From the NCBI GenBank assembly GCA_025457615.1, contig JALOTZ010000019.1, positions 1 to 64,000 of the forward strand: DNA of 64,000 nt, given 5' to 3'. Source of the stretch: Verrucomicrobiota bacterium (GTDB lineage: Bacteria; Verrucomicrobiota; Verrucomicrobiia; Limisphaerales; DSYF01). Both the position numbers and the translations under genes were made by a program. The notes beneath the pieces are model-generated. The model was given only the letters and a program-made list of their open reading frames with translations. It did not search any database and had not been told where the DNA came from. Of the stretch, positions 15,752 to 33,615 are shown in pieces; the first letter of the stretch is position 1; each line of letters begins with the position of its first letter.

Positions 15752-16909
15752 ATGCCCCCCGCCACTTCCAAAGGCGCCCCATCCGTCTGCCTGATCCATG
15801 GCGAGGACGATTTCAGCGTCAAACAGAAGGCGCGCGCCCTGTTCGCCGAGTGGGCCGCCGGCCTCGAGAGCATGGACCAGGAGACCATCGACGCCACCGC
15901 CGGCCATTCGGAGGAAGCCCTGCGCGCGCTGGGCCGGCTTCGCGAAGCTCTCAACACCCTGCCCTTCTTCGGCGGCAGCAAGCTGGTGTGGTTCAAGGAT
16001 TGCAACTTCCTCGGGGACGACCGCACCGCCTCCGCGCAATCGGTGACGGAGGCGCTGGGTGAACTTGCGGATGAACTCAAGGGGTTCTCCTGGCAGGGCG
16101 TCCGGCTCCTGATCAGCGCCGGCAAGGTGGACAAGCGCCGCACCCTGTTCAAGACCCTCGACAAACTCGGCGCGGTCGAGGAATGCCACGGGTGGTCGGT
16201 CAACGACAAAGACTGGGCCGCGCAAGCCGAAGCCTGGGCCCTGCAGGCGATCCGCTCGCAGAACAAGCAGATCCAGGACGACGCTCTCGGTGAACTGATC
16301 GAACGCGCCGGGGGGCAACCCCAGCAACTGGCCTCCGAGGTCGAGAAGCTCGTACTGTATGTCGGCCAACGGGCGGGGATCACCCGTCAGGATGTCGAGG
16401 CCATCTGCCTGCGCAGCAAACAGGCCCGAGCCTACGCCCTCGGGGACGCCCTGGGAGATCGCGATCTCCCCACCCTGCTCCGCCGGCTTGACGAGGAATT
16501 GTGGGAGGTCAAACTGGACACGCAAAAGTCCGAGATCGGGTTGCTCTACGGAATCATCTCGAAAGTGCGATCGATGTTGCTGCTCAAAGAAATGCTCAGA
16601 CAGAAGTGGCTCCGGCCCTGCAAAGACTTCTCCTCCTTCAAATCCCAACTGGAACGCATCCCGACCGACCGCCTGCCCGAGGACCGGCGCTACAGCCCCT
16701 TGGGAGTGAATCCCTACGTCCTGTTCAAAGCCCTCCCGCAAGCCGCCCATTACACGACCGAGGAACTGGTGAAGGCCATGGGCCTGCTGCTCCAGTGCAA
16801 CCGCCGCCTCGTCGGCAGCGGCATCCATCCGGCCCTGCTGATCCAGCAAACCTTGGTACAGATCGTCGGCACCGGGGCCCTCCCACGCCCGAAAGGCCGC
16901 CCCGCATGA
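15752..16909 (+). CDS. holA: DNA polymerase III subunit delta
   Basis: 385 aa; LIHGEDDFSVKQKARALF, RAGGQPQQLASEVEKLVLYVG, and C-terminal LLLQCNRRLVGSG. Confidence 0.88.
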   Translation: MPPATSKGAPSVCLIHGEDDFSVKQKARALFAEWAAGLESMDQETIDATAGHSEEALRALGRLREALNTLPFFGGSKLVWFKDCNFLGDDRTASAQSVTEALGELADELKGFSWQGVRLLISAGKVDKRRTLFKTLDKLGAVEECHGWSVNDKDWAAQAEAWALQAIRSQNKQIQDDALGELIERAGGQPQQLASEVEKLVLYVGQRAGITRQDVEAICLRSKQARAYALGDALGDRDLPTLLRRLDEELWEVKLDTQKSEIGLLYGIISKVRSMLLLKEMLRQKWLRPCKDFSSFKSQLERIPTDRLPEDRRYSPLGVNPYVLFKALPQAAHYTTEELVKAMGLLLQCNRRLVGSGIHPALLIQQTLVQIVGTGALPRPKGRPA

Positions 16910-17430
16910 ACCGCCCGGCCCCCGAGATCCTGGTTTGCGCCGACGGCACCAGCGTCTGCATCCGCATCCGCGGACGCGCGGACGTCACCATCAGCGTGGG
17001 ATTCAAGGAATTGCTGACGGGGCTCCATGAGCGGGGGTTTCAGCATTACGAACTGGAGTTGTCCGAGTGCCAGGTCATGGACAGCACGTTCCTGGGCGTG
17101 TTGTGCGGGTTCGCCCAGCGTCGTGAGGCCGGAAGCGACGGGAGGTACGAGAAACCGATTCTACTGAACGCGAACGAACGGATCACGGGCCTGCTCACCA
17201 GCCTGGGGGTGAGCGAAATGTTCGTGTTCCGGACCGGACGTCCGTCCGACGAGGGGCCCTGTGCAGCGGTTCCCCCAGGCCCGGGACGTCCGAGCCGCGA
17301 GGATCTGGACAGCACCTCGCTCGAGGCTCACCAGACCTTGATGGCCCTGAACCCGGACAACATCCCCCGGTTCAAGGATCTGACCGAGTTCCTGGCCGAG
17401 GATCTAAAGAAGTTGAGGAGCTCCCAGTGA
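16906..17430 (+). CDS. STAS-domain protein (anti-sigma-factor-antagonist-like)
   Basis: ATG overlaps the holA stop (ATGA); ELELSECQVMDSTFLGVLCGFAQRR is STAS-like with the D-S-T phospho-site region. Start trimmed from the longer ORF. Confidence 0.82.
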   Translation: MNRPAPEILVCADGTSVCIRIRGRADVTISVGFKELLTGLHERGFQHYELELSECQVMDSTFLGVLCGFAQRREAGSDGRYEKPILLNANERITGLLTSLGVSEMFVFRTGRPSDEGPCAAVPPGPGRPSREDLDSTSLEAHQTLMALNPDNIPRFKDLTEFLAEDLKKLRSSQ

Positions 17431-18899
17431 GCGGCGCCTTCCTGGTGCAGGCCGGCCTGCTGGGGGCCATCGAAGGGATGGCCGCGCTCTGGGCGACACT
17501 CTTTTTCGCCGCCTGCGGCCTGGTGGCTCTCCTGCGCCTCAAGCTCAACGCGGAACAAACGCGCGCCAGGGAACTCGAAGTTCTTGTGGACTTCGCCGCC
17601 CGCCGGCGGCGTCTGGCCATGGAACTGTTCCAGGTCCTCGGGTCAGCCTTCGAGACCCGGGTCAGCCTGGACAACCTGCTTCGCTCCACCGCGGTTTTCT
17701 TCATGCGCATCGCCCAGGCCACCGGCGCCATCGTGTACGTGCTCGATCGCGAGCGGGAACGGCTGAAACCCGCCGCCCTCTGCGGCACGCTGGGCGGGTC
17801 GATCGGGTCCGGCGCCGCCCGGCTCCAGCAGGAATCGCCCGGCATTCCCCTCGGCGAGGGGATCCTCGGCGAGGCCGCGCTCTACGGCCGCCCGGTGTTC
17901 ATCAACGATTGCTCGACCGACACGCGCCTGGAGTTTCTCGGCACTTCCACCCTGCGAATTGAGAACGCGATGGTGGTCCCTCTCCGGTTTCGCGACCGTT
18001 CCCTCGGAGTGCTGGTGGTGGTGAATCACATGGGCGAGGACGGCACCGTGGGCAAGCCCTTCGGCCGGGTTGAGTTTCAACTGCTGGAAGCGCTGGCCAT
18101 GTACGCCGCCGGAGCCCTCTACCTCGCGCTCACCTACCTCGAGCAGGCCGAGAAACAGCGGCTGGACTTCGACCTGGGCGTGGCCAGCGAAATCCAGCGC
18201 ATGCTCCAACCACAACATTCCCCGGTGCTGCGCAATCTCTCCGTCGTGGGCCAAAGCCGTCCGGCTTATCGCGTGGGCGGGGATCACTATGATTTCATCG
18301 AACTCGGCGGCTCCCGCCTGGGGGTGCTTATCGCAGACGTGTCCGGCAAGGGCGTCACCGGGGCGCTGGTCATGGCCATCTGCCACGCCATCGTCCGCAC
18401 CCACGCCGCCCGCCATTTGCAGCCAGCCGACGCCGTCAAAGAATTCCGCCGGCTCCTGATCGAGGACATTCCCGAGGACCGGTTCATCACCCTGACCTAC
18501 GGCATCCTCGACACCGAGACCCGTGAGTTCCGGTTCGCCCGCGCCGGTCACGATCCCCTGCTCTGCTACCGTGCCGCCTCCGGCGCGGTGGAGGTCCTGT
18601 CCCCCAAAGGCGGCGCGATCGGACTGGATCGCACTGACCGCTTTGATCGCAGCCTCGAACAACAATCCATCACCCTCGCGCCCGGAGACACGATTGTGTT
18701 GTTCACGGACGGGCTGACCGAGGCGGAGAATCCAGAGGGAGACGAGTTCAGTCTGAACCGGCTCAAAGCGTTGATCGCCGAGCGGGGAAGTTACACCGCC
18801 GCAGACTTGGGCCGGGTCATTTACGAGGGCGTGGAGGCGTTCGCCAAGGGCGCCCCTCCCTTGGACGATCAAACCCTCGTGGTGATCAAGGCCCGCTGA
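17427..18899 (+). CDS. GAF-SpoIIE family PP2C-type serine phosphatase
   Basis: GTG start overlaps the STAS stop; GGDHYDFIELGGSRLGVLIADVSGKGVTGAL...RFARAGHDPLL...LFTDGLTEAENPEGDEF. Confidence 0.93.
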   Translation: MSGAFLVQAGLLGAIEGMAALWATLFFAACGLVALLRLKLNAEQTRARELEVLVDFAARRRRLAMELFQVLGSAFETRVSLDNLLRSTAVFFMRIAQATGAIVYVLDRERERLKPAALCGTLGGSIGSGAARLQQESPGIPLGEGILGEAALYGRPVFINDCSTDTRLEFLGTSTLRIENAMVVPLRFRDRSLGVLVVVNHMGEDGTVGKPFGRVEFQLLEALAMYAAGALYLALTYLEQAEKQRLDFDLGVASEIQRMLQPQHSPVLRNLSVVGQSRPAYRVGGDHYDFIELGGSRLGVLIADVSGKGVTGALVMAICHAIVRTHAARHLQPADAVKEFRRLLIEDIPEDRFITLTYGILDTETREFRFARAGHDPLLCYRAASGAVEVLSPKGGAIGLDRTDRFDRSLEQQSITLAPGDTIVLFTDGLTEAENPEGDEFSLNRLKALIAERGSYTAADLGRVIYEGVEAFAKGAPPLDDQTLVVIKAR

Positions 18900-18908
18900 A
18901 GATTTCCC

Positions 18909-20168
18909 TTGAACCCGGATCCCTCCGCACGCCTTTTTCCACCCCGCCGCTCGGCCCATCCGCGCCGCGTGGTGGTGACCGGAGGCGGCGTGATCACAGC
19001 GCTGGGCCAGGGCTGGGCACCCAACGCCGCCGGATTTCGCGCCGGTCACTGCGGCATCCGCCCGGTCTCGCTCTTCGATGTCTCAGGCCAGCGGGTCAAG
19101 GTGGCCGCGGAGGCGGTGGTTCCCGAAACCATCCCGGGCTCGCGCCTTTCCCCAAAGCGTCTCTCCCGCTCGGACCGGGCCACCCGACTGCTCCTGACCG
19201 CCGGTCATGAGGCTTGGACCCAGTCGGGCTGGGAGACGACAGACCGCCTGCCCTTGATCCTCGCCACCACCAGCGGCGGGATGCCCCTGGGCGAAGCTTA
19301 CTATCGCGACACCCTCACCCACCCGACGCATCGGCGCCAGCAACCCACGCGCATCCTCAGCTACCAGGCCCAGCGCCAAGGCATCGATCTGCTGGACTCC
19401 CTGGGCTGCTCCGGATCCGTCTCGATCATCGCCAATGCCTGCGCCTCCGGCTCGAACGCCATCGGTCACGCGTGGGAAACCGTGCGGTCCGGACAGGCCG
19501 ATCGGGTGCTGGCCGGCGGTTACGACGGACTGTGCCATCTGGTCTTTGCCGGCTTCGACTCGCTGCAGGCGCTGTCCCCCACGCAGTGCCGTCCGTTCGA
19601 TGCCGCCCGGGACGGGCTGGCCTTGGGCGAAGGAGCGGCCGTGCTGGCGTTGGAAACCCTCGAGTCCGCCCGCCACCGCTCAGCCGACATCCTCGGCGAA
19701 ATCATCGGTTACGGTGCTTCGACCGACACGCACCACCTCACCCAACCGCACCCCGAAGGCGCTGCCGCGCTCGCCTCCATGCACCAAGCCACGCAGGTCG
19801 CCGGCATCCACCCTTCCGAAGTCCACTACATCAACGCCCACGGCACGGGCACCGTCCTGAACGACGCCGCCGAAGCCGCCGCCCTCAATGCCTGGGCTGG
19901 CGAGGCGGTTTCCCATCTCCACGTCAGTTCCACCAAGGCGTCCGTGGGACATCTGCTGGGCGCGGCGGGCGCCGTCGAAGCCGCCGTCTGCCTGATGGCG
20001 CTCGACGGACAATGGCTGCCGCCCTCGCTCTCCACAGTCACCGTCGATCCCGCCTGCCGGTTCCAGGTGATCACCCAACCCGCCCAAGCCAGCCTCAACA
20101 TCGCGCTGTCCAACTCGTTCGGCTTCGGCGGCGCCAACGCCACGTTGATCTTCAGGAGGTGGACATGA
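18909..20168 (+). CDS. beta-ketoacyl-ACP synthase (FabF-type), catalytic
   Basis: Intact Cys-His-His triad: NACASGSNAIGHA, NAHGTGTVLND, KASVGHLLGAAGAVEA; TTG start. Confidence 0.92.
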   Translation: MNPDPSARLFPPRRSAHPRRVVVTGGGVITALGQGWAPNAAGFRAGHCGIRPVSLFDVSGQRVKVAAEAVVPETIPGSRLSPKRLSRSDRATRLLLTAGHEAWTQSGWETTDRLPLILATTSGGMPLGEAYYRDTLTHPTHRRQQPTRILSYQAQRQGIDLLDSLGCSGSVSIIANACASGSNAIGHAWETVRSGQADRVLAGGYDGLCHLVFAGFDSLQALSPTQCRPFDAARDGLALGEGAAVLALETLESARHRSADILGEIIGYGASTDTHHLTQPHPEGAAALASMHQATQVAGIHPSEVHYINAHGTGTVLNDAAEAAALNAWAGEAVSHLHVSSTKASVGHLLGAAGAVEAAVCLMALDGQWLPPSLSTVTVDPACRFQVITQPAQASLNIALSNSFGFGGANATLIFRRWT

Positions 20169-21190
20169 GCGGCATCCGAGTAACCGGTTGGGGCGCGGTC
20201 TCGCCCGCAGGCTGGGGTGTTCTGCCGCTCATCGAAGTGTGCACGAACGCCCAGCCCTGCGAGACGGCACCTCTAACCTGTCCCGGCTGGCCGAAACCGA
20301 TCCCCGTCCGCCGGGTCCCCCCTCCGACGCCACGACCGACCTTCCTGGCGCACCCACGCCTTCGACGCAGCAGTTCCATCTCGCTCCACACGGCGGCCGC
20401 CGCGCTCGAGGCGTTGGGGCCTCGACTCGAGGCGATCCAATCCGGCCAACGCAGACTGGGGATCGTGTTTACTTCGCTCACCGGCTGTGTTTCCTATTCG
20501 CGCCGGTTCTACGATGAGGTGCTGAAGGATCCCGCCACCGCCAGCCCGATCCTCTTTCCGGAAACCGTCTTCAACGCGCCGTCCAGCCACCTCGCGGCGT
20601 ACCTAAACACCCAGGCCATCAACTACACCATGATCGGAGACCCCGGCACGTTCCTGCAAGGACTGGCCGTCGCGGCCGGTTGGCTCCTGGATGGACGGGT
20701 GGACCTCGGCCTCGTGATCGGCGCGGAGGAACTCGATTGGCTGGTCGCCACCGCCCAGCGCCGCTTCAGTTCGGACGTGGTGATCAGTGAAGGCGCCGGT
20801 GCGCTCGTGATCGAGCGAGCGGAGGCATCCGGACCCGGCATCGAAATCGACCGCATCAGCGAGCCCGTGCTCTACACCGCCGCAACCTCCCAGGCGGCCG
20901 CGGTCCGGCGGGTTCGGAACGAGGCGGGCGTGGACAACGCTGACACGGTCTTGGTGGACAGCCTGACCGGCGCCCCACACGTGGACCGGGCTGAGGCGAA
21001 CGCCTGGTCCGATTGGACCGGGCCGCGAATCTCGGTGAAGAAGCTTCTGGGCGAACCCTTCGCGGCGGGCAGCGCCTGGCAATGCGTGGTGGCCGCCGAG
21101 CACCTTTCTCGCGGACGGCACTCCAGCGCCATCGTCAATGTCGTCGGCTGCAACCAGCAAGCCATCGCCGCCCGGCTGGTGGCCCGATAG
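20165..21190 (+). CDS. degenerate ketosynthase homologue (chain-length-factor-like)
   Basis: ATG overlaps the previous stop; KS fold retained (MSGIRVTGWGAVSPAGWG...) but Cys and both His motifs are replaced. Confidence 0.8.
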   Translation: MSGIRVTGWGAVSPAGWGVLPLIEVCTNAQPCETAPLTCPGWPKPIPVRRVPPPTPRPTFLAHPRLRRSSSISLHTAAAALEALGPRLEAIQSGQRRLGIVFTSLTGCVSYSRRFYDEVLKDPATASPILFPETVFNAPSSHLAAYLNTQAINYTMIGDPGTFLQGLAVAAGWLLDGRVDLGLVIGAEELDWLVATAQRRFSSDVVISEGAGALVIERAEASGPGIEIDRISEPVLYTAATSQAAAVRRVRNEAGVDNADTVLVDSLTGAPHVDRAEANAWSDWTGPRISVKKLLGEPFAAGSAWQCVVAAEHLSRGRHSSAIVNVVGCNQQAIAARLVAR

Positions 21191-21375
21191 CCCTTCGGGT
21201 TCCAGCTTGGGGTCGCATCTTCACATTCCATTTGAACCGCTTCCTGACCGGCCTCCGAACCTCGCCTCTCGCCGTGATCTCACGAATGCAGAATGCGGAT
21301 TTCAGGCTTGTCCGGACCGGTCTTCCAGCACAGGCTTCGCGCTCGGGTTGGATTGGCAGCCCCTTCAACGAGACC

Positions 21376-21645
21376 ATGGACGACATTGCCGCACTGAAGA
21401 CGCGCATCAAGGAATTGATGGTCGAAAACCTCATGCTGCAGATTCCGGCCGCCGGGATTGCGGATGACCAGGCGCTGTTCGGCCCGGACAGCCTCGGTCT
21501 GGATTCGGTGGACGCCCTGCAACTGGTCGTGGCCCTGGACAAGAACTTCGGCCTCAAGGTGCCCAATCCGGAAGCCGCCCGCCTGGTGCTCGCGTCCGTC
21601 AACGCCATGGCGGAAGCCGTCCGACAGAAGCAGGCCGGGGGCTGA
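21376..21645 (+). CDS. acyl carrier protein
   Basis: 89 aa; phosphopantetheine attachment motif FGPDSLGLDSVDALQLVVAL. Start trimmed to MDDIAALKTRIKEL. Confidence 0.9.
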   Translation: MDDIAALKTRIKELMVENLMLQIPAAGIADDQALFGPDSLGLDSVDALQLVVALDKNFGLKVPNPEAARLVLASVNAMAEAVRQKQAGG

Positions 21646-21665
21646 GCGCACACTTCGCACCGACC

Positions 21666-22922
21666 ATGAGCCAACCCGAATACGACGCCATTATCATCGG
21701 GGGCGGCCCCGGCGGCAGCGCGGCGGCCACCTATCTGGCCAAGGCTGGACGCAAGGTGCTGGTTCTCGAAAAAGCCCGGTTCCCCCGGTTTCACATCGGC
21801 GAGTCGCTCCTGCCCTACAACCGCGAGGTGTTCGAGGAAATGGGCGTGCTGCCCGCGCTTGAACGAGCCGGTTTTCCCACCAAGCACGGAGCCCAGTTTC
21901 ACCTGGGTAATTCCAGCGTGCAACTGAAGCTCAAGTTTCAGAACGGCGCCTTCACCCGCCACACCACCGCCTTCCAGGTCGATCGCGCCACCTTCGACCA
22001 CATCCTGCTGCAACACGCCGAAGAATCCGGCGCCACGGTGCGCGAAGGCTGGACGGTCACCGACTTTCAGAACCAAGGTGACTGGGTCCGCGTCGAGGCG
22101 CGCAACGGCGACCCGCACCCACGCTCGTTCACAGCGAGCTACCTGGTGGATTGCAGCGGCCGCGCCAACCTGACGGGCAACCAGGAGCAGCTTCGCATCC
22201 CCCACCAGGCGCTGCGCAAGGTGGCGGTGTTCGGCCACTTCGACGGCGTCAAACTGGACGATGGCCCCACGGCGGGCGACACACTGATCATCCGGCTGGA
22301 GAACAAATGGTTCTGGATCATCCCCACCGGCCCACAACGCATCAGCGTGGGCCTGGTGATCGATCAGGAGGAGTTCGCCCGCAGCCGGCAATCCCCGGCC
22401 GCCGTATTCGAACAGGTGGTCCAATCCAGCGCCGAAATGCGCGACCGGATGAACTCAGCACGCCTGCTCACGTCCATTCAGGTCACCACAGACTTCTCGT
22501 ATTACAACCGGCGCCTGGTCGGGCCGCGGCTGCTCCGGGTGGGAGACGCCGCCGGGTTCATGGACCCGATCTTCTCGGCCGGTGTCTATCTGGCCATGTA
22601 TTCCGGACGTCTGGCCGCGCGGACGGTCATGGCATGCCTGGCGTCCGAGGGGAGCGCCGCGAAGCACCTGGCCCGGTATGAAAGGCGGATCTTCGCCGCG
22701 CTGCGTTATTACTGGGACCTGTCCCTGGGTTTCTACGACCCCGCTTTTCTGGAACTGTTCATGCAACCCCGCGAAGTGGCGCGCGTGCGGGACGCGATCG
22801 TGGCCATGCTGGCCGGGGAGATCGAAGGCGGCTGGAAACTGCGCTGGCGCCGTGCCTTCTTCTTCCTCCTCGTCCGCCTGCAACGCTACCGCGCGCTGGT
22901 GCCCCGACTCTCGTTCCACTGA
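21666..22922 (+). CDS. FAD-dependent oxidoreductase / flavin-dependent halogenase-like
   Basis: GGGPGGSAAATYLAKAG, FPRFHIGESLLP, K73 in TKHGAQFHLG, and WFWIIP (WxWxIP motif). Confidence 0.88.
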   Translation: MSQPEYDAIIIGGGPGGSAAATYLAKAGRKVLVLEKARFPRFHIGESLLPYNREVFEEMGVLPALERAGFPTKHGAQFHLGNSSVQLKLKFQNGAFTRHTTAFQVDRATFDHILLQHAEESGATVREGWTVTDFQNQGDWVRVEARNGDPHPRSFTASYLVDCSGRANLTGNQEQLRIPHQALRKVAVFGHFDGVKLDDGPTAGDTLIIRLENKWFWIIPTGPQRISVGLVIDQEEFARSRQSPAAVFEQVVQSSAEMRDRMNSARLLTSIQVTTDFSYYNRRLVGPRLLRVGDAAGFMDPIFSAGVYLAMYSGRLAARTVMACLASEGSAAKHLARYERRIFAALRYYWDLSLGFYDPAFLELFMQPREVARVRDAIVAMLAGEIEGGWKLRWRRAFFFLLVRLQRYRALVPRLSFH

Positions 22923-22955
22923 ACCCAAACTGGAGTTCGATGTCCGGTGTCTTGA

Positions 22956-23687
22956 ATGTCTGGTTCCCTGCCAACCCTCGACCTGACCCTGCCTTCCCCC
23001 GCCGAGAACCTCGCGCTGGACGAAGCGCTGCTGCTCGAGGCCGAAGGGAGCCAGGGACCGGAGGTGCTCCGCTTCTGGATGTCCTCCACCCCGTTCGTCG
23101 TGATCGGACTCGGGGCGAAGGCGCGTGAGGAGGTGAATCTGGAATCGTGCTGTCGGCGCGACATCCCGGTGCTGCGCCGCTGCAGCGGCGGCGGAACCGT
23201 GGTGCAAGGGCCCGGCTGCCTGAGCTATTCGCTGGTCCTGCGCATCCCGGAATCGGGCCCCCTGGCCGGCATCACCGCCACCAATCGATTCATCATGAAC
23301 CGTCACGCGACCGCGCTCGCGGCGGTCCTCGGACGGCATGTCACGGTGGAAGGCCACACCGACCTGGCCCTTGACCACCTCAAGGTGTCCGGCAACGCCC
23401 AGCGGCGGATGCGTCGTCACCTGCTCTTCCACGGCACGTTCCTCCTGGACTTCGATCTGGACCTGATCACGGAACTGCTGCCGGAGCCGGCGCTCCAGCC
23501 GGCCTACCGCCACCGCCGATCCCATCATCATTTCTTGCGAAACCTGAATCTGCCGGAGGCCAACCTGAAACAGGCCTTGCGGGAAACCTGGCAAACGAGC
23601 GGAGTGTTTGAGCCGATTCCCCGGCAGCAGGTGGCCGGGCTGGTCACGGAGCGTTATGGCCGGCCCGACTGGAACTTTCGCAGATGA
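22956..23687 (+). CDS. lipoate-protein ligase / BPL_LplA family protein
   Basis: RRCSGGGTVVQGPGCLSYSLVL and LKVSGNAQRRMRRHLLFHGTFLLDFD. Confidence 0.88.
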   Translation: MSGSLPTLDLTLPSPAENLALDEALLLEAEGSQGPEVLRFWMSSTPFVVIGLGAKAREEVNLESCCRRDIPVLRRCSGGGTVVQGPGCLSYSLVLRIPESGPLAGITATNRFIMNRHATALAAVLGRHVTVEGHTDLALDHLKVSGNAQRRMRRHLLFHGTFLLDFDLDLITELLPEPALQPAYRHRRSHHHFLRNLNLPEANLKQALRETWQTSGVFEPIPRQQVAGLVTERYGRPDWNFRR

Positions 23688-27987: not shown

Positions 27988-28929
27988 ATGAGGAGGGCAA
28001 ACAGGACATCCGCAATGCCACGAACCGCGGGTCTGCGTCTGGGGTTGTGTTGTCAATTCGCCGCCGAGCCGATCAAGTTCCGCACGACGACGGCGACGGC
28101 GATGCTGCGTCTGGGAAGGCGCGATCGGCTGGCGCGGCTGGCGCAACTGTGCCAATCCAACGCCAAGGCATTGAGGCAGTCGCTGGAATTTTGCGCCGGT
28201 CACCACATTGGCGCATTCCGGATCAACAGCCAGATCCTGCCGGTGAAGACGCACGCGGAGGCTGGCTACCAGATCGAGGAGCTGCCAGGGAACGCGGACA
28301 TCATCGCGCGCTTTCAGGAGTGCGGCGAGTTCGCCCGCGCGACTGATCTGCGGCTGTCGTTTCATCCGGACCAATTCGTGGTGCTCAATTCGCCGAACCC
28401 CCAAACGCTCGCGCATTCGCTGGCGGAACTCAGCTATCAGGCCGAGGTCGCGGAGTGGGTCGGCGCGGACACGGTGAACATCCACGGCGGCGGGGCGTAT
28501 GGCGACAAGGCGGCGGCGCTGCGCGTGCTGCGCGAAAACATCGAGCGCCTGCCCGAACCGGTGCGGTCGCGCCTCACGCTGGAGAACGATGACCGGGTTT
28601 ACACGCCGGGGGACTTGCTGCCCGTCTGCGCGGACACCGGCGTGCCGCTGGTTTACGACGTGCATCATCATCGCTGCCTGCCGGACGGCTTGAGCGTGAT
28701 CCAGGCCACGGAACGGGCGCGGAAAACATGGAAGACCGAGCCGCTGTTTCACATTTCCAGCCCGATCGAGGGCTGGGACGGACCAAAACCGGAACGGCAT
28801 CATGACTACATCAACGCGGCGGATTTTCCGAAAGCGTGGCTGGGCTGGCCACTGACGGTGGAAGTCGAAGCGAAGGCGAAGGAACTGGCCGTGGCCAAAC
28901 TCAGCGCCGATCTTAATCGCCAAGCATAG
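27988..28929 (+). CDS. uvsE: UV DNA damage repair endonuclease
   Basis: LGLCCQFAAEPIKFRTTT, FRINSQILPV, DLRLSFHPDQFVVLNSP, NIHGGGAYGDKAAAL, VYDVHHHRCLPD. Confidence 0.92.
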   Translation: MRRANRTSAMPRTAGLRLGLCCQFAAEPIKFRTTTATAMLRLGRRDRLARLAQLCQSNAKALRQSLEFCAGHHIGAFRINSQILPVKTHAEAGYQIEELPGNADIIARFQECGEFARATDLRLSFHPDQFVVLNSPNPQTLAHSLAELSYQAEVAEWVGADTVNIHGGGAYGDKAAALRVLRENIERLPEPVRSRLTLENDDRVYTPGDLLPVCADTGVPLVYDVHHHRCLPDGLSVIQATERARKTWKTEPLFHISSPIEGWDGPKPERHHDYINAADFPKAWLGWPLTVEVEAKAKELAVAKLSADLNRQA

Positions 28930-28933
28930 TCAA

Positions 28934-30379
28934 ATGTCACCAGCCAAGACCATCCTTGTCACTGGCGCGACCGGCTACGTCGGCGGCAGATTATTGCCGC
29001 TGTTGGTGGAGGATGGCTGGCGAGTGAGATGCCTGGCGCGGCAGCCGCAACGCTTGTCGTCGCGCGTGCCGGCGGGCGTGGAGGTGGTTGCTGGCGATGT
29101 GTTGGATGCCGCTTCATTGTCCGCGGCCATGCAGGGCGTCGAGGCGGCCTATTATCTGGTTCATTCGCTGGGCGCGACGGGCGATTTTGAAGCGCAGGAC
29201 CGTCTGGCCGCGGAGAATTTCGCCGCCGCCGCTCGCGCCGCGGGCGTGCAGCGGATCATCTATCTCGGAGGCTTGGGCGCAGTTGAGCCGGACCTGTCGG
29301 CACACCTGCGCAGCCGGCACGAGGTGGGCGAGCGATTGCGGGCGCACGCTGTGCCGGTGATCGAGTTCCGGGCATCCATCATCATCGGCTCGGGCAGCTT
29401 GTCCTATGAAATGATCCGGGCATTGGTGGAGCGGCTGCCAGTCATGGTGACGCCGCGCTGGGTGCGGGTAACGGCGCAACCCATCGCCATCGGCGACGTG
29501 CTGGCCTATCTCCGGGCGGCACTGTCCCTCAAGCTGGAGGGCAGCGTCGTCGTCGAGATCGGCGGGCCGGACCAGGTTTCGTATGGCGAGCTGATGCGCG
29601 AATACGCGCGGCAGCGCGGGCTGCGGCGACTGATGATTCCCGTCCCGCTGCTGACGCCGCGACTTTCGAGTTTGTGGCTGGGCCTGGTGACGCCGCTGTA
29701 TGCCCGCGTGGGTCGCAAGCTGGTGGACAGCCTCCGCCATTCGACCGTGGTGCGCGACGATTCTGCGCAACGCTTGTTTGCCATCAGACCGATTGGCGTG
29801 CAGGAGGCGATTGCGAGCGCCCTGAGAAACGAGGACTCAGCCTTCGCGCAAACCCGGTGGTCGGACGCATTATCCGCCGGGGGCACCCCCCGGCAGTGGG
29901 GCGGCACACGATTCGGCAACCGGCTGGTGGACTTGCGGTCGGCGCAGGTGGTAGTGTCGCCGGCAAAGGTGTTTACTGCTGTCGAACGCATCGGCGGCTC
30001 AAGGGGCTGGTATTATGCGAACTGGCTTTGGTGGTTGCGAGGCTGGCTGGACCTGCTCATGGGCGGGGTGGGAATGCGCCGTGGTCGCCGTGATCCGGAG
30101 CACCTGCGGGCGGGCGACACGCTGGACTGCTGGCGCGTGGAGAGCATCGAGGCGGGGCAGCGATTGCGCCTTTCTGCCGAGATGAAACTGCCGGGCCGGG
30201 CGTGGCTGGAGTTTGAGGTGCAACCGGATGGAAACGGGGCGCGGCTGCACCAGACGGCGACGTTTGATCCACTGGGATTATGGGGGCTGGCCTATTGGTA
30301 TGGCGTCTGGCCATTGCACCAGCTTGTGTTCGCCGGGATGCTGCGCGGCATCGCCAAAGCGGCGGAGGAACGCAAATGA
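28934..30379 (+). CDS. NAD(P)H-binding SDR-type protein with DUF2867 region
   Basis: MSPAKTILVTGATGYVGGRLLPLLVEDGWRVRCLARQPQ; C-terminal GDTLDCWRVESIEAGQRLRLSAEMKLPGRAWLEFEVQ. Confidence 0.9.
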   Translation: MSPAKTILVTGATGYVGGRLLPLLVEDGWRVRCLARQPQRLSSRVPAGVEVVAGDVLDAASLSAAMQGVEAAYYLVHSLGATGDFEAQDRLAAENFAAAARAAGVQRIIYLGGLGAVEPDLSAHLRSRHEVGERLRAHAVPVIEFRASIIIGSGSLSYEMIRALVERLPVMVTPRWVRVTAQPIAIGDVLAYLRAALSLKLEGSVVVEIGGPDQVSYGELMREYARQRGLRRLMIPVPLLTPRLSSLWLGLVTPLYARVGRKLVDSLRHSTVVRDDSAQRLFAIRPIGVQEAIASALRNEDSAFAQTRWSDALSAGGTPRQWGGTRFGNRLVDLRSAQVVVSPAKVFTAVERIGGSRGWYYANWLWWLRGWLDLLMGGVGMRRGRRDPEHLRAGDTLDCWRVESIEAGQRLRLSAEMKLPGRAWLEFEVQPDGNGARLHQTATFDPLGLWGLAYWYGVWPLHQLVFAGMLRGIAKAAEERK

Positions 30380-30688
30380 TGTCGATTCCACCCAGCCTCT
30401 CCCACGGGGAGAGGAGGCGGGCAGCCCGTTAAAACACTTCCGTCGCCCTCAAGACGGGCGCTCCGGACGGCACGCCGAGCAGTTTCTCAGACAGGCCAGC
30501 CGCCAACCGGGGTTCCGGCCTGGATTCGGGGATAAAGGCCTCTGACAGCAGCCGGTCCAGTTGCCCCGCCAGGCACAAAGGCAATGACAGGAGTCGCAGC
30601 GTTTGCGACTCGTCCCCCGACAGTTTCAGGACTTCCAATGTCAGGGCAACATGCCCCGCGCCGGCACCGCTACGCAACCGTTGCGCGA

Positions 30689-31864
30689 TTAGTATTGTCC
30701 CGCCGCCGCGCCCAGTTCCGCTTGGAGCAGCGCGGCGATTTCGATGGGCTTGCCATGAATCGCCCCCCGCTCTTCACGCTCCGGGGCCGACAAGCTTTGC
30801 TCAGCCGCCTCCAGCACCACCGTGGTCCAGAACCCCAGCTCGACCGGGTTCATCAGGCGCTGGCGTTCGGCCTCCTCCAACGTTCCGTTGCGCGCCCTGA
30901 GGATCTTCTGGTAGAGCCGTCCCGGATGGCTGATGCCGTAACCGGTCACCAGGCCGTCAGCCTCGAAATTGCGGAACAACGGGTTGCGCTCCTGAATGCC
31001 TTCCCGGCCCAGCTCGTGGTAACCGGGCATGTCGAGGTCCAGATCGAGCATCCCTTCCGTGCAAATGATGCGGGCCGACTGGACAGTGGTCGAGTGCGCC
31101 GCATTGGGCAGGTGCCAGCCCGTCACAATATGGGCCACCCCGCCGTTCTCGAACGTCACCTCCGTGTCACACAGGTCATAACCGTGGACCGCAATCGGCG
31201 CCAGGCTGGGCAGCTTCTGCCGCCAGCCATTGGCCCGCACCCGGACGGGCTTCAGGTTGACGATCCGGATGAACGCATCCGCCATGTGCACGGTCAGGAA
31301 CGAGATCGGCGAGTTCTTCGCCGCGAAATCCGACGACGCAAAAAAGCGCGGGACATGGTTCGGGTCGGCCACCAGCAACTTGTCGAGCATGTACCACACC
31401 GCCGCCTGAAATGTCCCATACTCGCCCCGCTGATACCGCGCGGCGGCTTCCTTGATCCGCGGATCGTCCCGCTTGTGAAAATCCACCCCCAGCAACCGCC
31501 CGCTGGCCCGCGCCGCCTCGATCATCCGGTGGGCCGATTGGATCGAGTCCGACAGCGGTTTGGGCACCACGACATCCAACCCCGCCTCGAGCGCGTGTAT
31601 CGTCGGCTGCTCGTGCAGGTGGTCCGGCGTGTTGACCTGCACCGCGTCGAGCCTCACCCGGTCGAGCATCTCCTCGTAGCTGCCGAACCGCCGCTCGGGA
31701 GGGATGGCGTACTGGTCGCAAAACTCGTTCAGACCCTTTTCATAGGGATCGGCCGCCGCCTCGATCGAGAGCCGGGGGGCATATTCACTGTGGAAATAGA
31801 GGTGACGATAGATCTCGCGCACGACGGATCCCGTCCCGATGACACCAATACGCAGTTTCTCCAT
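30689..31864 (-). CDS. Gfo/Idh/MocA family oxidoreductase
   Basis: MEKLRIGVIGTGSVVREIYRHL...VNTPDHLHEQPTIHALEAGLDVVVPKPLS. Confidence 0.93.
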   Translation of the reverse strand: MEKLRIGVIGTGSVVREIYRHLYFHSEYAPRLSIEAAADPYEKGLNEFCDQYAIPPERRFGSYEEMLDRVRLDAVQVNTPDHLHEQPTIHALEAGLDVVVPKPLSDSIQSAHRMIEAARASGRLLGVDFHKRDDPRIKEAAARYQRGEYGTFQAAVWYMLDKLLVADPNHVPRFFASSDFAAKNSPISFLTVHMADAFIRIVNLKPVRVRANGWRQKLPSLAPIAVHGYDLCDTEVTFENGGVAHIVTGWHLPNAAHSTTVQSARIICTEGMLDLDLDMPGYHELGREGIQERNPLFRNFEADGLVTGYGISHPGRLYQKILRARNGTLEEAERQRLMNPVELGFWTTVVLEAAEQSLSAPEREERGAIHGKPIEIAALLQAELGAAAGQY

Positions 31865-31869
31865 AGAGG

Positions 31870-33615
31870 TTACGTGGCTTTGCCGCCCGGGCGGCCCGGG
31901 GATTCTTGATGCGGACGTGGGGCGGTCCCCACATGCTGCAGAATGAACAGCGCCAGGAACTCGGTGAATCTCACCATCTCGGCAATCTCAATTTGCTCGT
32001 GATCGGCATGCGCGTGGGCCAGATGCCCCGGGCCGCTGGTGAGCACCGTCAAGTCCGGGTGCTCCGTGGCAAACAAGCGCGCGTCGCAGGATACGTCCCA
32101 GCCCCGCACCGGTCCGTCATCCCAAATCCCCGACGCCCGGGCCGCGGCGATGGCATCGCTCATCGCCGGCGAGTCGGGTCGCCCGGCAAAGGCCGCGTTG
32201 TGCAGCTTGTCAAAGCTCACCTGAAAGACCGGGGACGCCGCATCGTTGCGGCCCATCCGCCCGAGATACCGCGCCGCGCCGCGCCACACCGCCTGCCGCA
32301 GCCGCTCCTGAACCTCGGACATCGGATGCGTTGGCAGGAACCCCTGCCCTCCCTCCATCACCAGGTGCGAGACATCCGCCCAGCCCGCCAGAGCCAGTTC
32401 CATGCTGGCGCCGGCCATCCGTTCCAAAGCCGCCCGGCTGGCGACCAGGGACCGCACCAACGCCGCCAGCTTGGTGATGGCCCCGTCATTCTGCAGAATT
32501 GAACCCATGTGGCCCGTTGAGCCGTGCACCGCCACCTGGTAGCAGCCAGCCGCCGGCTCCGTCAGATCGTAGTGGCGTTCGACCTTGGGCTTGCCGGTGG
32601 CCGGGTCGTTGACCTGGGTCTTGTCCCCATACCACCCGACATACTGCCGCAAGCCTTCGGCGAGCACGTCCTCGATCATCGCGCGCACGGGCGGCGTGGG
32701 CACGACGCCCTTGAACCGGATTTCGAACTCGACGCGCCCGCAGATGCGCGAGGGATGCTCACCCCAATGGCCCAGAATCCCATGACAGGTTTGCACCGGA
32801 CGGTGAGGAAAGAGGTCGTGCCGGCTCTCGGCCCGCAGTGCCAGCCCCTCCCACTCGATCTCCTCGATGATGAAGGCCGACGCCTCGAACAGGTTCGCCC
32901 CCGCCAGGCGCGCCTCGACCTTGTACCAAAGCGCTCCACGGTTGCCGGGGTGGATCTGGCTCGAGCAGCATTCCAAGACCATCAAGGTGTCGTAACGCCG
33001 CCGCAGCTCCCGGTCCAGCGCCAGGGACAACGACCCGTTGCCGCCGGTCTCCTCCTCAATCACAAACATCGCGGTCAATGAGTTGGCCAGCTCCACAGCC
33101 CCCGCACCCCCTGCCCCCCGCACCAGCTTCATCGCTCCCAGCAGACAGACCAGCGGCCCCTTGTCATCGCAGGCACCACGGCCATGCACCCGCCCACCCT
33201 CGACCCGCGGCGGGATGTAGGGCGGCACCACGTCCACGTGGGCATTGAAGGCCAGCGCCGTCCCGCCGCCGCCTGCCCCTTCCACGGTGGCCACCAGGTT
33301 GGATCGTCCCGCGTATGCCTCCACGACCGGGATCGCCCCGGCACCGGTCGGACGCGCCGTGTAATAAGGGATCGAGTAGAACGGGTGCGCCGCGATCGCC
33401 GGGTTGATGGGTACGCGACGCAGGCCCAGGCCCGGCCATTGGAGCTTGCGCAGGTGTCTTTCGACGATGCGCAACGCCTCATCCTCCGCGGCGCGATAAG
33501 CTGCCACATCCGCTCTGGCCGTGGTATCCACCCGGCAAAGTTCCACCAGCAGATCCACCAGGTACTGACGAAACCCCTCGCTCCGGGCTTCCTGCTGGAG
33601 CTTGGCAATATTCAT
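31870..33615 (-). CDS. M20 family metallopeptidase / deacylase
   Basis: LAFNAHVDVVPPYIPPRVEGGRVHGRGACDDKGPLVCLLGAMK...EEETGGNGSLSL. Confidence 0.92.
   Translation of the reverse strand: MNIAKLQQEARSEGFRQYLVDLLVELCRVDTTARADVAAYRAAEDEALRIVERHLRKLQWPGLGLRRVPINPAIAAHPFYSIPYYTARPTGAGAIPVVEAYAGRSNLVATVEGAGGGGTALAFNAHVDVVPPYIPPRVEGGRVHGRGACDDKGPLVCLLGAMKLVRGAGGAGAVELANSLTAMFVIEEETGGNGSLSLALDRELRRRYDTLMVLECCSSQIHPGNRGALWYKVEARLAGANLFEASAFIIEEIEWEGLALRAESRHDLFPHRPVQTCHGILGHWGEHPSRICGRVEFEIRFKGVVPTPPVRAMIEDVLAEGLRQYVGWYGDKTQVNDPATGKPKVERHYDLTEPAAGCYQVAVHGSTGHMGSILQNDGAITKLAALVRSLVASRAALERMAGASMELALAGWADVSHLVMEGGQGFLPTHPMSEVQERLRQAVWRGAARYLGRMGRNDAASPVFQVSFDKLHNAAFAGRPDSPAMSDAIAAARASGIWDDGPVRGWDVSCDARLFATEHPDLTVLTSGPGHLAHAHADHEQIEIAEMVRFTEFLALFILQHVGTAPRPHQESPGRPGGKAT

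Follow-up and report, generated by a model that had tools for sequence, protein, structure and literature searches.

A ketosynthase-halogenase operon from a Limisphaerales genome as the probable core of an aryl-polyene-type pathway with scattered genes

A 64,000-nucleotide stretch of DNA from a bacterium of the Verrucomicrobiota, order Limisphaerales (hereafter the window: GenBank assembly GCA_025457615.1, contig JALOTZ010000019.1, positions 1 to 64,000, forward strand), carries a run of genes that appears to encode part of a polyketide pathway. The source genome measures 3.3 Mb, is 94% complete and lies in 96 contigs. Between positions 18909 and 23687, all on the plus strand and with genes for a STAS-domain protein and a GAF-SpoIIE phosphatase ahead of them, are five genes: a FabF-like ketosynthase alpha (KS; 18909..20168, TTG start, exact start uncertain), a degenerate KS resembling a chain-length factor (CLF; 20165..21190), an acyl carrier protein (ACP; 21376..21645, PF00550, start codon uncertain), a halogenase-type flavoenzyme (FDH, for flavin-dependent halogenase; 21666..22922, Trp_halogenase PF04820) and a member of the lipoate-protein ligase family (LplA; 22956..23687, PF21948). 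KS and CLF overlap by 4 bp, and 9 bp separate SpoIIE from KS. A preliminary description, made from the letters of the DNA, had counted six genes with minimal gaps; the one-strand run is there, but the interval holds five genes (six only with SpoIIE) and the gap between CLF and ACP is 185 bp. The identities it gave to the KS, degenerate KS, ACP, flavoprotein and lipoate-ligase-family genes were borne out by profile searches and an active-site alignment.

The first two genes encode an active KS and a Cys-less partner, the heterodimer-type pair of aryl-polyene pathways. In alignment columns shared with known ketosynthases, the active-site residues of KS are complete: Cys (NACASG), His (NAHGTG), Lys (SSTK) and His (VGHLLG). 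The protein matches PF00109/PF02801 and also the ishigamide chain 6kxd_A, and its orthologues in relatives are 52-65% identical. CLF, which matches KS-fold profiles only, has lost the active-site Cys and both His in the same kind of alignment. Its AlphaFold model (pLDDT 88.9, pTM 0.90) has a ketosynthase fold, and in the PDB that model comes closest to the CLF chains found in the ishigamide polyene synthase (6kxe/6kxd/6kxf; template-modelling (TM) score 0.83-0.84); by sequence, the best PDB match is 9s5h. The ishigamide synthase is a type II polyketide synthase (PKS) of the highly reducing kind and forms a polyene. Its KS/CLF pair (Iga11-Iga12) is thus the nearest fold for CLF, but identity is about 20% and the pathway is from Streptomyces.

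The ACP has the phosphopantetheine site GLDSVDAL, and orthologues that are 54-73% identical sit downstream of CLF in relatives. It is distinct from the AcpP of the genome, which is encoded on another contig (C32) within a normal fabG-acpP-fabF set, separate from the window operon. That set bears on the idea that canonical fabF/acpP genes were misread as a secondary pathway, an outcome that the preliminary description had named as its own refutation. KS does score 351 bits with the FabF model TIGR03150, short of the 494-bit cut-off; against this, the window genes are neither the sole fabF/acpP of the genome nor orthologous to them, and because the normal set is present on C32 the window KS and ACP are not the fatty-acid genes. 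KS also has a conserved Cys-less partner and a patchy spread (22 of the 58 genomes introduced below), and the idea deserves next to no credence.

FDH contains the motifs GxGxxG, GESLLP, K73, WFWIIP and FMDPIFSAG; across 15 orthologues K73 is invariant and WFWIIP and FMDPIFSAG are conserved. It thereby has the catalytic Lys, WxWxIP and Fx.Px.Sx.G of carrier-protein-type halogenases. The closest PDB relatives are ChlB4 (7fco), CndH (3e1t) and PltA (5dbj), with which it shares near full-length similarity, the catalytic Lys, WxWxIP and FxDPxFSxG, but the similarity is distant. The substrates of all three halogenases are bound to carrier proteins. With these motifs kept and halogenases as its structural relatives, the flavoprotein can be called halogenase-like, as had been proposed; that it halogenates is suggested by the motifs, but relatives that do not halogenate may share them, the QhpG model being another match. 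The two best-scoring relatives of FDH among the plasmid matches listed belong to clusters from Azospirillum and Roseomonas, where the annotation also names KS, a "beta-ketoacyl synthase chain length factor", FabG, MMPL, LolA and AMP-binding ligase. Separately, a second halogenase-like flavoprotein, FDH2, which at about 480-524 aa is the longer of the two, is encoded divergently from KS at about 12 of 80 loci in relatives (L028:6007-7581, L123, L152 and others); it retains WxWxIP and is without the GESLL motif.

Conservation was followed in a panel of 58 genomes from the order to which the source belongs (Limisphaerales/Pedosphaerales, Verrucomicrobiota; the source genome included) and at 80 named loci, the best 80 of at least 341 KS-CLF loci in GTDB genomes. 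CLF orthologues occur in 22 of the 58 genomes, the source included; a sample of 115 genomes from the phylum added 4 more, each of the same class. Most of the 80 loci are titled as Limisphaerales, as Pedosphaera or as other Verrucomicrobiota, and a few just as "bacterium". Kept so widely, the KS-CLF pairing is not due to chance. KS neighbours CLF at 78 of the 80 loci. Downstream of CLF, a ketoreductase (KR) gene follows at 54 and an ACP gene without KR, the layout of the window, at 16, the usual order in relatives being KS-CLF-KR-ACP. A synteny search had been proposed as a check, and it found the order KS-CLF-(KR)-ACP conserved. FDH lies directly 3' of ACP in several relatives (for example L124, L130, L142 and L161), and two genomes (G025 and G044) have a one-locus version: FDH, lipoprotein, MMPL exporter fused to lysophospholipid acyltransferase (LPLAT), LolA, FabZ-like dehydratase (DH), AMP ligase and, further on, family 2 glycosyltransferase (GT2), HydE-like radical S-adenosylmethionine (radical-SAM) enzyme, KS, CLF, KR and ACP. 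The KS-CLF operon seen in Limisphaerales is also present on three contigs titled as metagenome-assembled genomes (MAGs) of Akkermansia muciniphila (L133, L170, L180); these titles may be misassigned.

In most relatives the dedicated KR adjoins CLF, between CLF and ACP. The corresponding spacer of the window (21191..21375) holds no KR remnant, and the two general short-chain dehydrogenases/reductases found elsewhere in the window are 30-32% identical to the relatives' KR and are not orthologues of it. Since the dedicated KR has been lost, its function is probably supplied in trans, with FabG as the likely substitute. Such loss looks to have been repeated across lineages: the window stands apart from the other KR-less loci in a CLF tree, in which deep support is low, and shared ancestry of the KR-less layouts was rejected. 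The proposal that enzymes are supplied in trans by fatty-acid synthesis therefore probably holds for KR (FabG, on C32); the remaining functions are dispersed as genes of the pathway's own. Likewise, the window has no KR orthologue and no further pathway member recognised by tblastn, in keeping with the remark that acyltransferase, KR, DH and thioesterase are missing nearby, but the genome does encode DH, AMP ligase, acyltransferase and exporter on other contigs.

These partners lie on three other contigs, which makes four with that of the window, and only a dedicated KR is missing. Contig C10 (about 28334-33316) encodes a lipoprotein, a protein of about 1100 aa that joins an MMPL exporter to an LpxL/HtrB-type acyltransferase (C10:28756-32037, also L077:10833-14153), LolA and a FabZ-type DH; the AMP ligase is on C53 (7734-8984); and C56 bears a HydE-like radical-SAM gene (C56:27487-28533, equal to L208:9487-10533; also L077:18522-19616) together with genes for a GT2 glycosyltransferase and for a small conserved protein. 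The genes of the exporter, DH and AMP ligase have their full length. The lipoprotein has no Pfam match and its homology to ApeN is not shown; a plasmid search with the AMP ligase returned distant general ligases only. Although the assembly is in 96 contigs, the four loci do not look like one broken cluster, because each has other genes around it with no match to the pathway. In some relatives (for example G028 and G022) the MMPL and acyltransferase halves are separate genes. The AMP ligase and GT2 genes have companions from two conserved families, of about 235-300 aa and about 133 aa (L080:1728-2624 and L077:17361-17762), that match nothing in Pfam or NCBIfam; the source genome has homologues on C53 and C56.

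The partners also travel with CLF over the 58 genomes, in tests that take genomes as independent and ignore shared ancestry, nearly every genome being of a different genus: the MMPL exporter is found in 22/22 genomes with CLF vs 5/36 without (p=1.4e-11) and the HydE-like enzyme in 16/22 vs 2/36 (p=1e-7), and CLF co-occurs with FDH (p=1e-7) and AMP ligase (p=3e-7), while the control, LplA, gives p=0.42. This co-occurrence tells against the idea of a self-contained, undescribed pathway for a short modified acyl-ACP under SpoIIE/STAS control and with use of the lipoate ligase. The window by itself does show just these genes, tightly spaced, but none of the 80 loci contains LplA or SpoIIE/STAS, which in relatives are unlinked to KS-CLF, and such a pathway is very unlikely. 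Another reading is a decaying remnant, of a pathway being lost in the lineage and yielding no product. Consistent with decay are the missing KR, the spread of genes over four contigs and the failure to find KS-CLF in an assembly of the same genus (G001, 80% complete); set against it are the intact catalytic residues of KS, ACP and FDH, the KR-less KS-CLF-ACP layout at 16 of 80 other loci, and the full-length exporter, DH and AMP ligase. Decay seems highly improbable.

The gene content was compared with that of known systems through published gene tables and the two plasmid clusters of Azospirillum and Roseomonas. The gene set of the E. coli aryl-polyene (APE) cluster matches: the apeA-R genes of E. 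coli CFT073 and Xenorhabdus share the ApeO/ApeC-like KS-CLF logic, ACP, DH, KR, AMP ligase, LPLAT, glycosyltransferase, LolA, resistance-nodulation-division (RND) exporter and lipoprotein (PMC8253772, Table 1), but the loci read here show no second KS (ApeR), second ACP or thioesterase (the last was not searched for), and they have a halogenase instead and dispersed genes. Xanthomonadin and arcuflavin clusters (Xanthomonas, Azoarcus BH72 and the two plasmids) likewise combine KS and a CLF-like partner with KR, DH, ACP, AMP ligase, acyltransferase, GT2, LolA, MMPL and halogenase. In xanthomonadin-type clusters KS goes with an unusual CLF and the halogenase has been linked to bromination (PMC3691225); for arcuflavin a halogenase gene is present and the genes are, as here, split, in that case over two loci (PMC3949708, Table 1). 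The present system differs in that KS and CLF are not specifically related to theirs by sequence, CLF is about 340 aa vs about 265 aa, exporter and acyltransferase are fused, a HydE-like radical-SAM enzyme is associated, and the source genome has no dedicated KR and no UbiC was found (XanB2 was not searched). The flexirubin gene set of Bacteroidota is a further match (PMC3992019): the relatives' KR matches the NCBIfam model FlxB (203 bits) and LolA matches LolA2, both below cut-offs, and exporter, acyltransferase and glycosyltransferase are shared, but CLF-bearing genomes have no tyrosine ammonia-lyase, and dialkylresorcinol genes were not noticed near the loci (no dedicated search was made). 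For other Verrucomicrobiota, predictions of aryl-polyene clusters have been published (PMC9865893); the papers searched contain no mention of aryl polyenes together with Limisphaerales.

The best account, to which we give a probability of roughly 0.8 on gene content and predicted fold, is that the genes of the operon form the core, for chain building and tailoring, of a highly reducing type II PKS that would make an aryl-polyene-class polyene acid for attachment to an outer-membrane lipid. Beside the KS-CLF pair, the genome has a dedicated ACP (window), DH (C10) and AMP ligase (C53), and for export and attachment an MMPL/RND exporter, LolA, lipoprotein and lipid acyltransferase (C10) and a GT2 (C56). 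The system is of a known kind, an aryl-polyene-type outer-membrane pigment pathway with a predicted product, in a variant form: a distinct KS/CLF lineage, scattered genes, no dedicated KR and an exporter-acyltransferase fusion. The preliminary description had proposed an undescribed pathway for a short acyl chain; instead, the set reads as the KS/CLF/ACP/halogenase part of an aryl-polyene-type cluster, the rest of which is dispersed in the same genome. In the proposed mechanism, the AMP ligase would load an aromatic starter onto ACP and KS/CLF would extend it with malonyl units; DH and a KR supplied in trans (probably FabG) would leave one double bond per cycle; FDH may halogenate, or otherwise oxidise, the ACP-bound head group; and acyltransferase, MMPL and LolA would deliver the product to the outer membrane.

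Several findings weigh against this assignment. KS is 33-37% identical to proteobacterial pigment KSs vs 36% to the genome's own FabF, and CLF has no significant pairwise similarity to pigment CLFs, so that in a comparison with two proteobacterial clusters neither groups by sequence with known pigment enzymes. Because of this, membership of the aryl-polyene class is argued from gene content and fold, and it is therefore better to say that the system works like a proteobacterial one than that it is an orthologous member. No dedicated KR is present in the whole source genome at E<=1e-55. For MMPL the top-scoring model is that of the hopanoid transporter HpnN, below the cut-off of the model. Finally, aromatic ammonia lyase (PF00221) and UbiC (PF04345) are absent from all CLF-bearing genomes and were rejected as starter enzymes (XanB2-type chorismatase was not searched); the "aryl" is unproven because no known starter-making enzyme was found. 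The lack of such an enzyme, the resemblance of the AMP ligase to fatty-acid/MenE-type ligases in general, the nearness of MMPL to HpnN-type lipid transporters and that of the CLF fold to the ishigamide CLF would all suit a polyene without an aryl group, or some other highly reduced type II polyketide, that the same enzymes would build from a non-aromatic starter: a chain like that of ishigamide, or an unsaturated membrane lipid. Such a product is unlikely, in that MMPL, LolA, lipoprotein, LPLAT, GT2, AMP ligase and DH match published aryl-polyene clusters item by item and the relatives of FDH lie in aryl-polyene clusters.

The origin of the starter unit is a testable question, and the co-occurring HydE-like radical-SAM enzyme, which could make or modify the head group, is a candidate. 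To our knowledge no role of such an enzyme in polyene pigments has been described. HydE and PylB are its closest models, below their cut-offs, and its gene lies beside KS-CLF or GT2 in many Limisphaerales. In a subset of loci a B12-type radical-SAM-like gene pair lies directly upstream of KS (L034:5820-8581, L042:6070-8789, L175, L187), and some of the loci with this pair show no HydE-like gene nearby. It is possible, if doubtful, that Verrucomicrobiota have a separate polyene synthase lineage, with distant KS/CLF, dispersed loci, fused exporter and acyltransferase, a borrowed KR and a head group that would be derived by a HydE/PylB-like radical-SAM enzyme and then halogenated. What is new is the KS/CLF lineage without close match to proteobacterial pigment enzymes, the scattering of the genes, the lack of a known aryl-starter enzyme and the HydE-like radical-SAM enzyme. 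With the aryl-polyene-type reading, an orphan KS/CLF/ACP/halogenase operon, whose KS/CLF core occurs at more than 300 loci in Limisphaerales-type genomes, is assigned to an outer-membrane polyene pigment pathway; and since that pathway is scattered in some genomes, cluster-based genome mining may see unrelated fragments.

The genes on either side of the operon are probably not part of it. Upstream are the STAS-domain protein (16906..17430, plus strand; PF13466/PF01740, below curated cut-offs) and the GAF-SpoIIE (PP2C-type) phosphatase (17427..18899, plus strand; PF07228, 155 bits), which had been suggested to gate the operon. SpoIIE/STAS genes lie near KS-CLF at 0 of the 80 named loci and go with holA, and a conserved role in the pathway was rejected: the order holA-STAS-SpoIIE recurs in two related genomes, one of the same genus, where the contig stops inside SpoIIE, and one of the same family, where KS sits on a different contig. 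SpoIIE and KS may be co-transcribed here, given the short gap between them; a specific regulatory role is unsupported. The lipoate ligase, earlier counted as part of the set, was rejected as well: it is of a widespread housekeeping type, near KS-CLF at none of the 80 loci, with an orthologue in 48 of the 58 genomes independently of CLF (Fisher p=0.42). Both it and the STAS/SpoIIE pair are probably chance neighbours.

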